Shown here piece after piece: positions 59,216 through 64,000 of a stretch of DNA of 64,000 bases. This DNA comes from Alphaproteobacteria bacterium SS10 (GTDB lineage: Bacteria; Pseudomonadota; Alphaproteobacteria; TMED2): the NCBI GenBank assembly GCA_019192455.1, contig JAHCML010000006.1:253893-317892 (forward strand), given 5' to 3'. A program made the position numbers and the translations under genes. The stretch's first letter is position 1. Each line of letters starts with the position of its first letter. The notes under the pieces are model-generated. The model searched no databases, had not been told where the DNA came from, and was given only the letters and a program-made list of their open reading frames with translations.

Positions 59216-60391
59216 TTAGTCGCGCTCGAGGCACATGGCGATACCCATGCCGCCACCGATGCAAAGCGTGGCGAGGCCCTTCTTGGCGTCGCGCTTGCCC
59301 ATCTCATGCAGCAGGGTAACGAGGACGCGCGCACCGGAAGCACCGATTGGGTGACCGAGGGCGATCGCACCACCGTTTACATTCACCTTCTCCATATCGA
59401 AGCCGAGGTCTTTAGCAACGGCGAGCGACTGGGCGGCGAAGGCCTCATTGCTCTCAATCAGATCGAGATCATCAACGCTCCAACCGGCATCTTCCAATGC
59501 CTTGCGGGAGGCTGGGATCGGGCCGGTACCCATGATTGCCGGATCAACACCGCAGGTGGCCCAGCTTTTAATGCGGGCAAGCGGGGTCACACCGCGCTTC
59601 TCAGCTTCATCAGCGGACATCAGGACAACGGCGGCGGCGCCGTCATTAATACCAGAGGCGTTGCCAGCGGTGACGGAACCTTCCTTGGCAAAGGCGGGGC
59701 GCAGTTTCGCCATGCCTTCCATGGTGGCACCGGCGCGTGGGTATTCGTCGGTGTCGACAACCACATCGCCCTTACGGGTCTTGATGGTGACGGGGACGAT
59801 TTCATCTTTAAACTTACCTGCACTCATGGCCGCCTCAGCCTTATTTTGGGAGGCGACGGCGAACTCGTCCTGCTGCTCGCGGGTTAGTTGCCATTTCTCA
59901 GCGATGTTCTCTGCCGTCTGGCCCATGTGATAGCCGTTGAACGCGTCCCAGAGGCCGTCCTTGATCATGGTATCGATCATCTGGAAGTCGCCCATCTTCT
60001 GGCCATTGCGCAGCTGTTGGGCGTGGGGTGATTGGCTCATGCTCTCTTGACCACCGGCAACCACGATACCGGCATCGCCGACCTTGATCGCTTGATAGCC
60101 GAGGGCAACGGCACGCAGGCCGGAACCGCAAAGCTGGTTGATACCGTAAGCCGTCTTCTCATGCGGGATACCGGCATTCATCGCGGCCTGGCGGGCTGGG
60201 TTCTGACCAGCGCCAGCGGTCAGGATTTGGCCCATTACGGTCTCATCAACCTCATTCGCCTCAACCTTAGCGCGGCCCATAACCTCACGAATAACTGTCT
60301 CACCCAGATAGTGGGCTGGAACGGTGCTAAGTGCGCCACTGAATGAGCCAATTGGCGTGCGCGCGGCGGCGGCGATGACGACATCTGACAT
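59216..60391 (-). CDS. phaA: Acetyl-CoA C-acetyltransferase (PhaA)
   Basis: PhaA condenses two acetyl-CoA to acetoacetyl-CoA. 391-residue thiolase: acylation Cys in [11 protein letters not shown], the loop [12 protein letters not shown], His in [18 protein letters not shown], second Cys in [15 protein letters not shown] lies 7 nt before ATG 60391; an upstream in-frame ATG at 60466 has no such site. A 221-bp gap separates it from phaC, so it may have its own promoter. Confidence 0.97.
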
Positions 60392-60612: not shown

Positions 60613-61932
60613 TTACAGCTGGGAATTCAACCAGCTGGCAATCGGTTCCCAAACCTTAGTCTGGGCGCTGGACCCAACCACCAAGCCAACATGGCCGAGT
60701 GAGACCTGCATCGGCTCTGCTTGTGGGATCACCGCCGCCAATGCCTGGGCCGAGGCTGGCGGGACAATGCGGTCATGGTCGGGGATGACAACCAAGCTTG
60801 GCGCCTCAATGGTTTGTGGGGTGACCGGGAGGCCCGCAATGCGCCAATTCCCATGGGCCGGATCATTCCGGCCATACCAACCACGCAGGCATTCATGCGC
60901 CACCTTGGCCGGCAGCGGGATGCCATCATTCAGCCAATCCTCAAGCGCGACAAACGCCTCAATCTGCTCAGCTTGATCATCGATGGATGGGTCAAGCGCT
61001 GCGAAATTGGCGAACTTCCGCGGCACCAACAGCGGGTCTAGGCTGGCGAACAGGCTTTGAATGGCATCAACCGGCAGGGCGCCCCATTGATCGACAAAGG
61101 GGGCAATCGCCTCATAAGCGGCCGCCACCCGGCGCGCGGCCGGTGCGCCCATGGCATGGAATGACCAGGGGGTGGCCAGCAGAACCAGAGCCCGCACATC
61201 CAATGGGCGCCGCCAAGCAAGCGCAGCGGCCAGCATTCCACCCATACAATAGCCAAGCACAGGCAGGGAGGATTGCCGGGTCAGGCGGCGGGCCGCATCC
61301 AGCGTCCGCTCAAGCCGCCCGGCGACATAATCGGTCAGGGTAAAATCATGCTCAAGTGGCCCGGGCGTGCCCCAATCCACCATCAGTGGCCGAAACCCCT
61401 GCCCGGCCAACCAGCGCATTAGGCTCGTGCTCTCGGTCAAATCCAGGATGTAACCGCGATTGATCAGCGATGGAACGACGAGGATCGGCTTTGCCTTAGG
61501 GTCCGTGCCGTAATCCAGAAGGCGGGTTGCCCCCTCGGCCCAAATCACCGGTGGCTCTGTGAGATCACGGCGATACTCGGCATGGCGATAGCGCTCGACG
61601 CCGGTGAAAAACTGGCCGAGGCGGCGGCGGGCTTCAATATCGATGGCGTTAGTGATCTCGCGCTGGCTATCAGCCTCGGCACCGCGCTTTAGCGGGTCAG
61701 CTGCGTCCGCCTGTACCCGTGTCGCGATCTTCTGCCGGAGTTGGTCGGCCCGTGCCTTCAAGCGCGGATGCCAGATCGGCGAGCCGTTGTTCCAGAGATG
61801 CCAACCGGTTGAAGAGCTGAGCCATGTCACCATCGCCGCCTGCATGTGCAGCGGCAGCGGACGCGGACCCTGACGCAGCGGCGTCTGGCTGTCCTGATTG
61901 CTGTCCGGGCTGTTGGGTGGCGTCTGGCTCAT
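60613..61932 (-). CDS. phaC: PHB synthase-type alpha/beta hydrolase (PhaC)
   Basis: A 439-residue polyhydroxyalkanoate synthase-like enzyme, polymerising (R)-3-hydroxyacyl-CoA. The synthase lipase-like box is LGYCMGG with nucleophile Cys229, with Asp in PDHDRIVPP and His in LGHVGLVVG. N-terminal landmarks are RPLPLHMQAAM and a WHPRLKARADQL segment. It is shorter than class I/II synthases (about 560-590) and longer than class III (about 355), and lies beside a PhaE-like gene whose last 236 nt overlap its start out of phase. ATG 61932 is supported by the conserved N-terminal region; later ATGs (61845, 61833) would cut it. Confidence 0.9.
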   Translation of the reverse strand: MSQTPPNSPDSNQDSQTPLRQGPRPLPLHMQAAMVTWLSSSTGWHLWNNGSPIWHPRLKARADQLRQKIATRVQADAADPLKRGAEADSQREITNAIDIEARRRLGQFFTGVERYRHAEYRRDLTEPPVIWAEGATRLLDYGTDPKAKPILVVPSLINRGYILDLTESTSLMRWLAGQGFRPLMVDWGTPGPLEHDFTLTDYVAGRLERTLDAARRLTRQSSLPVLGYCMGGMLAAALAWRRPLDVRALVLLATPWSFHAMGAPAARRVAAAYEAIAPFVDQWGALPVDAIQSLFASLDPLLVPRKFANFAALDPSIDDQAEQIEAFVALEDWLNDGIPLPAKVAHECLRGWYGRNDPAHGNWRIAGLPVTPQTIEAPSLVVIPDHDRIVPPASAQALAAVIPQAEPMQVSLGHVGLVVGSSAQTKVWEPIASWLNSQL

Positions 61933-62335
61933 TATTGTCGTTCTTCGGCTGAGCGGCAGGGAAAGGCGGGGTAAAGCCCATACCTTGGTTCGTGCCCTGG
62001 CTCGGCATTGGTCCAGTTGGGTAGCCAGCCGCAGGGTTCATGGGCGGTTGCTGGCCATCCTGACCATACATCCCACCCGCCATACCGCCGGACATTCCGT
62101 TGGGCGAAGCATACAAATTCGCAGCGCTAAGTAAATTCGCGAAATTCGCAAAAGCGGCCGCGCTTGGCCCCATCATCTGAAAGCCACGCGCCATCGCCTC
62201 GGCCACCATGGGGTCGGTGGCAAGGGCCGTCCATTGATCCTGCCACAAATCCAGGTACTGGCGGGCCAGTTCGTCGAATTCGGGGGCAGCACCATCAGCG
62301 CCATTGCTGGCTTTTGGGTCGGTGTCGTCGCTCAT
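61697..62335 (-). CDS. PhaE-like PHB synthase-associated protein
   Basis: A 213-residue protein upstream of phaC. Residues 12-70 are an amphipathic, aromatic-rich helix region (LARQYLDLWQDQWTALATDP) resembling PhaE/phasin proteins; the middle is Gly/Met/Pro/Gln-rich low-complexity; the end is a coiled-coil (FNRLASLEQRLADLASAL). It likely partners PhaC or coats granules. Start ATG 62335 follows the longer in-frame extension that lies in the regulatory region. Its 3' 236 nt overlap phaC in another frame. Assignment to PhaE is by position and features. Confidence 0.72.
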   Translation of the reverse strand: MSDDTDPKASNGADGAAPEFDELARQYLDLWQDQWTALATDPMVAEAMARGFQMMGPSAAAFANFANLLSAANLYASPNGMSGGMAGGMYGQDGQQPPMNPAAGYPTGPMPSQGTNQGMGFTPPFPAAQPKNDNNEPDATQQPGQQSGQPDAAASGSASAAAAHAGGDGDMAQLFNRLASLEQRLADLASALEGTGRPTPAEDRDTGTGGRS

Positions 62336-62440: not shown

Positions 62441-62518
62441 AATGCTGCGCAGCATTTGCGATGCACAATATTGCTTGGACTCAAACGGCAACCAGCGCTA
62501 AATGTTTGGCAATATTGC
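62441..62518. promoter_or_regulatory. TGC-rich palindromes between phaE-like and phaR genes (PhaR operator candidates)
   Basis: AATGCTGCGCAGCATT (62441-62456) is a perfect 16-bp palindrome; GCAATATTGC (62509-62518) is another perfect dyad and CAATATTG (62466-62473) a third. PhaR proteins are known to bind TGC-rich sites near pha genes, and this is the 257-bp divergent region between phaR and the phaE-phaC genes. Confidence 0.6.
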
Positions 62519-62592: not shown

Positions 62593-63180
62593 ATGAACGC
62601 CAAAGCGACCAAAGACGACGCGCCGATCACGATTAAGAAGTACGCGAACCGGCGGCTCTACAACACGGCGACCAGCTCCTATGTAACCCTCGACCACCTC
62701 TCCAAGATGGTAAAGGCTGGCGAAGACTTCGTGGTTTATGACGCGAAAAGCGGCGATGACATCACGCGCTCTGTCCTCACCCAGATCATCGTTGAGGAAG
62801 AGTCCAAGGGTGAAAACCTGCTGCCGACCAGCTTCCTCCGCCAACTCATCGGCATGTATGGCGAGAACATGCAGATGCTCGTCCCCCACTATCTTGAGCA
62901 AGCGATGCAGAGCTTTGCCAAGAACCAGGAGCAGATGGGCGAGATGTTCCGCGACAGCATGGGTGGCATGGGCGGTATGTTCGGCCTGAAGCAGATGGAA
63001 GAGCTGAACAAACAAAACCGCGCGATGTTTGAGCAGGCCATGCGCATGTTCAGCCCAACCGGCATGGATGATGCTGGGGACAAGCCAGCCGCCAAAGCTG
63101 GCGGCGGTGAAGATCTCGATGAGCTTAATCGCAAGATCGATGAGCTACAGCAGCAACTTAAAACCATGACCGGCAAGTAA
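62593..63180 (+). CDS. phaR: PHB synthesis repressor PhaR
   Basis: PhaR senses PHB and represses phasin and pha genes. 195 residues. The N-terminal DNA-binding domain has ITIKKYANRRLYNTATSSYVTL and ITRSVLTQIIVEEESKG; then QLIGMYGENMQMLVPHYLEQAM; the C-terminus is Met/Gln/Gly-rich (GEMFRDSMGGMGGMFG) and ends in a short coiled coil (DELNRKIDELQQQLK). Divergent from the PhaE-like gene over palindromic operators, which would allow autoregulation. Converges with the EAL gene. Confidence 0.95.
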   Translation: MNAKATKDDAPITIKKYANRRLYNTATSSYVTLDHLSKMVKAGEDFVVYDAKSGDDITRSVLTQIIVEEESKGENLLPTSFLRQLIGMYGENMQMLVPHYLEQAMQSFAKNQEQMGEMFRDSMGGMGGMFGLKQMEELNKQNRAMFEQAMRMFSPTGMDDAGDKPAAKAGGGEDLDELNRKIDELQQQLKTMTGK

Positions 63181-63191
63181 GCGCTGATCGC

Positions 63192-64000
63192 TTAACCGGC
63201 GGTCCGCTTAACTGGAGAGTCTTTGAGGAAGTCTGGCGTCATGCTGGGCTCCCCGATACCATATCCCTGCAGATAATCGACACCAGCGGAGGCGAGCACA
63301 TCCTCCTCCGCCTTGGTTTCGACGAACTCAGCCACCGTTGGCACGCCGAGGCCAGCCGCCAGATGCAGCAGCGTCTGTACAAAGAGGCGGTTATCCTGGT
63401 TCTCACTCAACCCCTGGATAAACGAGCCATCGATTTTCAATAGATCGATGGTTAGGGCACGCAGCTGTCCAAAGGATGTGTAACCAGCACCAAAGTCATC
63501 AAGCGCCACCCGGCATCCAAGATCGCGCATGGAGCCGATGAAGCGCTGGGCCTCCACCAAATCCTCAATGGCAACGGTTTCCGTGATTTCGATGATCAAC
63601 CGCTTGGCCACATCCGGCAGATCCTGAAGATCGACCGCCACACTACGGGTCCAGGCACGGTCAGCGACCGTAAGGCTGGACACATTGATCGAGAGCGAGA
63701 CCTCTGGATGCGCCTCTAGCACACGGATCGCCTGATCAATGGCGTAGCGATCAACGGAGCGGCCAAGACCCAGACGCTCAATCGCCGGCATGATCTGGCC
63801 GGCGGTCAGCCAATTGCCGCGACCATCAGGGATACGCAACAGCGCCTCGTAGAACACCACCTCGTGCCCATCGGTGGTGACAACGGGCTGATAGGCCAGG
63901 CTGGCCTGCCGCTTGGTCAACGCGTTCTTCACCGTCTCAGCCATGGCGAGGCTGTAACGTTGGGCAGCGCGCTGCTCCTCATTCAGCTGATAGCGGCGAT
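63192..64000 (-). CDS. EAL-domain cyclic-di-GMP phosphodiesterase, 5' part cut by the window
   Basis: The C-terminal EAL domain of a c-di-GMP phosphodiesterase. All key catalytic residues are present: FYEALLR (Glu), LSINVSS (Asn), IIEITET (Glu), ALDDFGAGYTS (Asp-Asp), LLKIDGSFI (Lys), VAEFVE (Glu) and YLQGYG (Gln). Upstream the frame stays open to base 63998 (RYQLNEEQRAAQ before Met at 63944), so the protein extends outside the window, perhaps with a GGDEF or sensory domain. It converges with phaR (11-nt gap). Confidence 0.92.
   Translation of the reverse strand, partial: RRYQLNEEQRAAQRYSLAMAETVKNALTKRQASLAYQPVVTTDGHEVVFYEALLRIPDGRGNWLTAGQIMPAIERLGLGRSVDRYAIDQAIRVLEAHPEVSLSINVSSLTVADRAWTRSVAVDLQDLPDVAKRLIIEITETVAIEDLVEAQRFIGSMRDLGCRVALDDFGAGYTSFGQLRALTIDLLKIDGSFIQGLSENQDNRLFVQTLLHLAAGLGVPTVAEFVETKAEEDVLASAGVDYLQGYGIGEPSMTPDFLKDSPVKRTAG

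Follow-up and report, generated by a model that had tools for sequence, protein, structure and literature searches.

A long out-of-phase overlap between a phaE-like gene and phaC in Alphaproteobacteria

The phaE-like/phaC locus

The window (the whole stretch of DNA that was analysed, 64,000 nucleotides from Alphaproteobacteria bacterium SS10) carries a phaE-like gene and phaC, a synthase gene for the storage bioplastic polyhydroxyalkanoate (PHA). The two lie on the same strand and share part of their DNA. The features of the locus are as follows.

61697..62335, minus strand: phaE-like gene, 212 amino acids (212 codons)
60613..61932, minus strand: phaC, class III-like PHA synthase, 439 amino acids, with C229 in GYCMGG, D387 and H414
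61697..61932, minus strand: out-of-phase overlap of the two genes, 236 nt, with phaC in the +1 frame relative to phaE
61930..61932, minus strand: phaC start codon ATG, inside phaE; the sole in-frame ATG, GTG or TTG within 150 nt upstream of GPRP
61846..61869, minus strand: PhaC motif GPRPLPLH, read in the other frame as the Ala-rich PhaE-like linker GSASAAAAH
61754..61834, minus strand: C-terminal coiled-coil helix of the PhaE-like protein, around MAQLFNRLASLEQRLADL; the PhaC frame reads TWLSSSTGWHLWNNGSPIWHP, and both frames are constrained
62593..63180, plus strand: phaR, polyhydroxyalkanoate synthesis repressor, divergent neighbour (TIGR01848, 4.8e-46, above cut-off)
59216..60391, minus strand: phaA-type acetyl-CoA C-acetyltransferase, downstream of phaC and co-directional with it

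The open reading frames were found where a preliminary description had placed them, on one strand in frames one base apart: phaC codons are offset by one base in the 3′ direction from those of phaE, and 236 nt are common to both. The closing coiled coil of the phaE-like frame and the RPLPLH...WHPRL of PhaC were likewise at the places given there. The conserved GPRPLPLH motif is located 63 nt into the overlap, with no in-frame ATG, GTG or TTG between it and the phaC ATG at 61932, and therefore the overlap is at least 173 nt long whichever phaC start holds. For the phaE-like gene, the ATG at 62335 is a better start than the TTG at 62491, since the former immediately precedes the conserved N-terminus LARxYLDLWQ.

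The best family model for PhaC is TIGR01836 (class III PhaC; 1.2e-51), although the score of 175.8 bits is below the curated cut-off of 365.3. Residues C229, D387 and H414 are invariant in 30 homologues. In the AlphaFold2 model the core has pLDDT mostly above 90, while residues 1–60 are of low confidence with a moderate helix at 27–38, which is as would be expected of a docking segment. A second and distant PhaC-type synthase occurs in the same genome (G000:C3:1391372-1392190, locus L027; 28% identity, open frame of 744 codons), and therefore the organism may have another PHA synthase besides the phaE-like/phaC pair. The phaC1 gene of R. rubrum (Rru_A0275, in a phaC1-phaA-phaB operon) may belong to the overlap type, because a published primer for it encodes VEDWLND, which resembles the LEDWLNDG of the PhaC in the window. 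Beside phaR and phaC lies an EAL-domain gene (63192-63998, minus strand; c-di-GMP phosphodiesterase-like, by eye). Similar sequence is found upstream of phaC in locus L011 (417-2228) and, in another frame, in L001 (about 1317-2030), which suggests a conserved neighbourhood.

The PhaE-like protein is predicted to consist of an N-terminal helical hairpin (residues 19–75), which carries the LARQYLDLWQ motif, a disordered Gly/Met/Pro-rich linker, an isolated C-terminal coiled-coil helix and a polar tail. AlphaFold2 places helices at 19–40, 42–75 and 168–194, with block pLDDT of 81–96 in most. The N-terminus, which is outside the overlap, is also conserved, and L30 and W31 are invariant in a 41-sequence alignment. 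The name "phaE-like" that it had been given reflects its position and architecture; the PhaE family model PF09712 does not match it, nor does it match anywhere else in its genome. Among 41 PhaE-like members, PF09712 is not one of the 25 most-matched Pfam families (E up to 1), although the model does match in 58 genomes of the phylum; NCBIfam holds no PhaE model. A direct profile match to class III PhaE was not significant (hhalign probability 9.7%). The link through an intermediate set is stronger, at 76% for the PhaE-like profile against this set and 97% for the set against PhaE, bearing in mind that coiled coils match one another easily. A sequence search of the PDB and a comparison of the PhaE-like model with solved folds returned generic coiled coils only, or nothing. 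Outside the class, matches to the PhaE-like profile fall mostly on the linker and coil, and these were not taken as members. In the PLSDB table for plasmid ABSP7_p3 of Azospirillum brasilense Sp7 (L201, 2161-2688), the phaE-like gene has no entry between phaR and phaC, and PhaC is entered as an "alpha/beta fold hydrolase"; this table is incomplete, and the original record may differ.

Distribution in the class and comparison with class III loci

PhaC homologues of any score were present in 258 of the 385 genomes of the class. The DNA around the phaC start was read at 123 loci with good PhaC matches, which represent about 45 family labels by our own count. A phaE-like frame is paired with phaC in the same phase at 114 of these, a number that includes L112, where the PhaE stop comes immediately ahead of the PhaC motif. 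The stretch open in both frames is 120–250 nt long; GPRP and the PhaE stop are a median of 164 nt apart (5–95%: 122–249), and the nearest in-frame ATG and that stop a median of 209 nt. A few extreme distances come from a misplaced motif and one from the early PhaE stop of L112, and a few of the unpaired loci run into the end of a contig. Another 30 loci, taken from the G051 family and the G178 genus to provide close relatives, all have the overlap in the same phase, as does A. brasilense Sp7. A sequencing frameshift, raised in the preliminary description as a way in which the overlap might be spurious, is ruled out by the recurrence of the same geometry in more than 140 loci of other genomes.

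There are exceptions. Three loci, L112, L136 and L105, have a PhaE-like protein with the LW domain but without the coil, its frame ending ahead of the PhaC motif, so that the two genes are naturally separated; in two others, L117 and L125, the PhaE coil is degraded. All five retain PhaC and its motif, so the PhaE coil is not indispensable and the PhaC segment has value of its own. The motif is also present in L013, which has no PhaE gene. In L069 and L074 the phase and length of the overlap are kept and PhaC is intact, while the PhaE coil is replaced by sequence of the type DEPAQRAAADRRR; this looks like compensated frame changes inside the coil.

The locus resembles the class III PhaE-PhaC systems in having phaE directly upstream of phaC on one strand, an accessory protein that ends in a coiled coil and charged tail, and a PhaC core with Cys-Asp-His for which TIGR01836 is the best model. 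It differs in that the PhaE-like protein has 212 residues and does not match PF09712, that PhaC bears an extra N-terminal segment of about 80 residues, and that the genes overlap by more than 120 nt whereas class III genes abut. In the loci with true PhaE (PF09712) that we read, phaE is directly before phaC, the two genes overlapping by as much as 4 nt or lying up to about 13 nt apart. A coil also closes the upstream gene in related Chloroflexi and a deltaproteobacterium, in several cases together with a charged tail; by our reading, this gene is separated from phaC by a gap or overlaps it by about ten bases at most. Residue 62 of class III PhaC aligns with residue 143 of PhaC in the window, which places the class III start at about residue 82; the PhaE-like stop falls at PhaC codon 78–79. 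Over 50 loci, this stop has a median position 40 codons before the landmark W of VIWAEG in PhaC.

Because class III genes abut, and the PhaE stop is near their PhaC start, the phaC N-terminus is probably the newer sequence and overprints the PhaE coil. The simplest reading is thus a 5′ extension of phaC into phaE. The ancestral arrangement would have been an accessory gene of the PhaE/PhaR type, ending in a coiled coil and charged tail, with phaC right after it. In an ancestor of many Alphaproteobacteria, phaC initiation would have shifted some 60–80 codons upstream into phaE, so that the linker and coil DNA, when read in the +1 frame, supplied PhaC with a new N-terminus (GPRPLPLH ... W..S..AALP...GS.PW.P), and purifying selection would then have fallen on both readings.

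The overlap could be real and have the reverse origin, with PhaE growing into an older PhaC N-terminus through loss of its stop codon. Simulations make extension by stop-codon loss the commoner direction (PMC3887535), and the presence of the PhaC motif without a PhaE gene in L013 is consistent with this. Against it, the PhaE proteins of class III and intermediate loci already have a terminal coil and charged tail and finish just short of PhaC, the PhaC proteins of these loci have no extension, and the alphaproteobacterial PhaE stop is near that same junction. We therefore regard growth of PhaE into PhaC as improbable.

Selection on both frames and probable translation of the pair

Codons were resampled with the residues of one protein fixed, and the other frame was then scored. 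With PhaC fixed, the native PhaE frame scored 45.5 bits against 9.7 for shuffled sequences (107 loci). In the reverse test, which held PhaE fixed, the PhaC N-terminus reached 68.6 bits and its shuffles 17.7. In a non-redundant set of 66 loci with less than 75% DNA identity to each other, the PhaE frame scored 34.0 against 8.2 bits with PhaC fixed (median z 4.5), and the native frame beat all 100 shuffles in 54 of the 66. Control regions downstream in phaC, in the same frame, gave 23.3 against 20.0 and 27.4 against 19.0 bits (z 0.6 and 1.6). The third frame over the overlap was somewhat raised (z 2.3), as is expected where two frames constrain the same DNA, and the downstream regions are therefore the main control.

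Synonymous change was compared in 41 independent close pairs. Pairs picked by identity inside the overlap are biased, and the pairs used were selected by DNA lying away from every region under test. Inside the overlap, synonymous change per site was 0.241 for PhaC, compared with 0.390 immediately downstream (0.62×, 0.54–0.69), and the ratio falls to 0.45× in the coil block; for PhaE it was 0.175, compared with 0.323 in the stretch preceding the overlap (0.54×, 0.46–0.64). Purifying selection thus acts on both proteins in the shared DNA. The proposal that both frames are genuinely coding is borne out by these tests and by the common phase in 114 of the 123 loci, and an unconserved PhaE tail, which would have spoken against the overlap, was not seen.

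High-GC genomes keep extra frames open, and with PhaC fixed about 47% of PhaE frames would be open by chance; it could thus be argued that phaC alone is real in the overlap, with GC-rich phaC codons holding the phaE-like frame open. We consider this very unlikely, because the PhaE frame is open more than 100 nt past GPRP in at least 107 of 123 loci, its peptide is conserved far beyond shuffles while the downstream control regions are not, PhaC-synonymous sites are poor in change within the coil, and the PhaE-like N-terminus is conserved outside the overlap as well.

The way in which the shared DNA serves two proteins can be followed along the alignment, since the 66 loci align nearly gap-free from GPRP to the end of the coil. 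Under GPRPLPLH, which is nearly invariant in this set, the PhaE-like protein is an Ala/Pro-rich linker and PhaE-synonymous change is 0.05×; here PhaC dominates. Over the next 20 codons both frames matter. The PhaE heptad leucines are at columns 18, 21, 25, 28, 32 and 35, and opposite them PhaC has residues with codons able to start with T (W, S, and L as TTG), as required by the shared T at position 2 of the PhaE codon. PhaE Arg columns face Ala or Gly in PhaC, and Glu columns face Lys, Arg, Asn or Ser. The compatibility of the frames follows from the genetic code and the column counts over the 66 loci.

A start of phaC after the PhaE stop, with the upstream PhaC frame a mispredicted 5′ extension, would agree with the position at which class III PhaC proteins start, and with the mostly low confidence of the extension in the AlphaFold2 model. 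It has very little probability given the near invariance of GPRPLPLH and the scarcity of PhaE-synonymous change beneath it, and the persistence of the motif where PhaE stops before it (L112, L136, L105) or is absent (L013). A mispredicted phaC start is accordingly rejected because the motif is conserved.

Regions around phaC starts are more open than control positions, with opening energies of 14.6 against 18.0 kcal/mol (57 loci, p = 4e-5); for the window the values are 6.5 and 14.6 kcal/mol. Shine-Dalgarno-like matches of at least four bases occur at 40% of nearest phaC ATGs against a background of 16%, although the match in the window itself is weak. An in-frame start codon is present upstream of GPRP in 64 of the 66 loci, and in-frame ATG codons are modestly enriched (53 of 66, with 42.6 expected given PhaE). 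The preliminary description had suggested translational coupling. For stop-restart coupling a stop is found at or near the next start; here the phaE stop is 236 nt downstream of the phaC start. Coupling of this kind is thus unlikely, because of this distance and because the phaC start is unusually accessible compared with the surrounding mRNA. The open start regions and the Shine-Dalgarno matches make independent internal initiation most likely, although ribosomes passing along phaE could still help or hinder it. One transcript would then yield two proteins by separate initiation, PhaC being made from an accessible internal start; on sequence grounds, we infer that both are translated. Recoding by a +1 frameshift to give a PhaE-PhaC fusion, for which the +1 frame of phaC throughout and the 120–250 nt of double-open frame would be suitable, is hardly credible given the in-frame starts, the Shine-Dalgarno enrichment and the open mRNA, and no fused single frame was noticed among the loci read.

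A putative synthase partner and the significance of the overlap

We conclude that the overlap is genuine and no artefact, and that the phaE-like and phaC genes are likely an ancient overlapping pair that encodes a two-component PHA synthase. Operon position, architecture and weak profile links suggest that the PhaE-like protein most likely serves PhaC as an accessory or assembly partner; the extension of PhaC would be mostly a flexible docking segment. PhaM-type activators of Ralstonia PhaC are accessory proteins that help PhaC, and the PhaE-like protein is similar in being a small accessory protein and putative PhaC helper; no sequence link between the two was found within the family libraries. 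A more speculative possibility, which we put forward tentatively, is that in a large part of the class the synthase acquired its N-terminus by overprinting of the coiled coil of a partner gene that is mostly left unannotated, and that the two segments bind each other within the synthase complex, in which case the shared DNA would be the record of a co-evolved interface.

The preliminary description rightly noted that overlaps of this length are rare. In a survey of 338 genomes, no co-directional overlap of more than 60 bp proved genuine, the longest real one being 56 bp; the survey identified mispredicted 5′ extension as the usual cause of annotated long overlaps, and proposed that gene lengths giving such overlaps be flagged as errors (PMC2478687). 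The overlap described here is two to four times longer than this 60-bp limit, and is exceptional because same-strand overlaps so long are usually annotation errors. It resembles holD-rimI (PMC2478687) in being a genuine, conserved overlap of two frames on one strand; however, holD-rimI is at most 56 bp long and belongs to Enterobacteria, whereas the phaE-like/phaC overlap extends over about 120–250 nt and about 45 family labels in one fixed phase. The long overlapping genes of E. coli (for example antisense to ompA, PMC7103648) also have two long coding frames, but these are antisense, whereas the present overlap is same-strand, class-wide and between two genes of one apparent operon. Our literature search found no paper describing it, with many subscription journals lying outside the search. 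Overlapping genes are known, and so are PhaE-PhaC pairs; their combination at such length and depth is not known to have been described.

Its length, its single phase over about 45 families and the selection on both frames make the overlap a natural test case for dual coding and for the methods that detect it. It also points to a probably overlooked partner of PHA synthase, absent for example from the gene table of Sp7; constructs carrying phaC alone from such bacteria would lack this putative partner.
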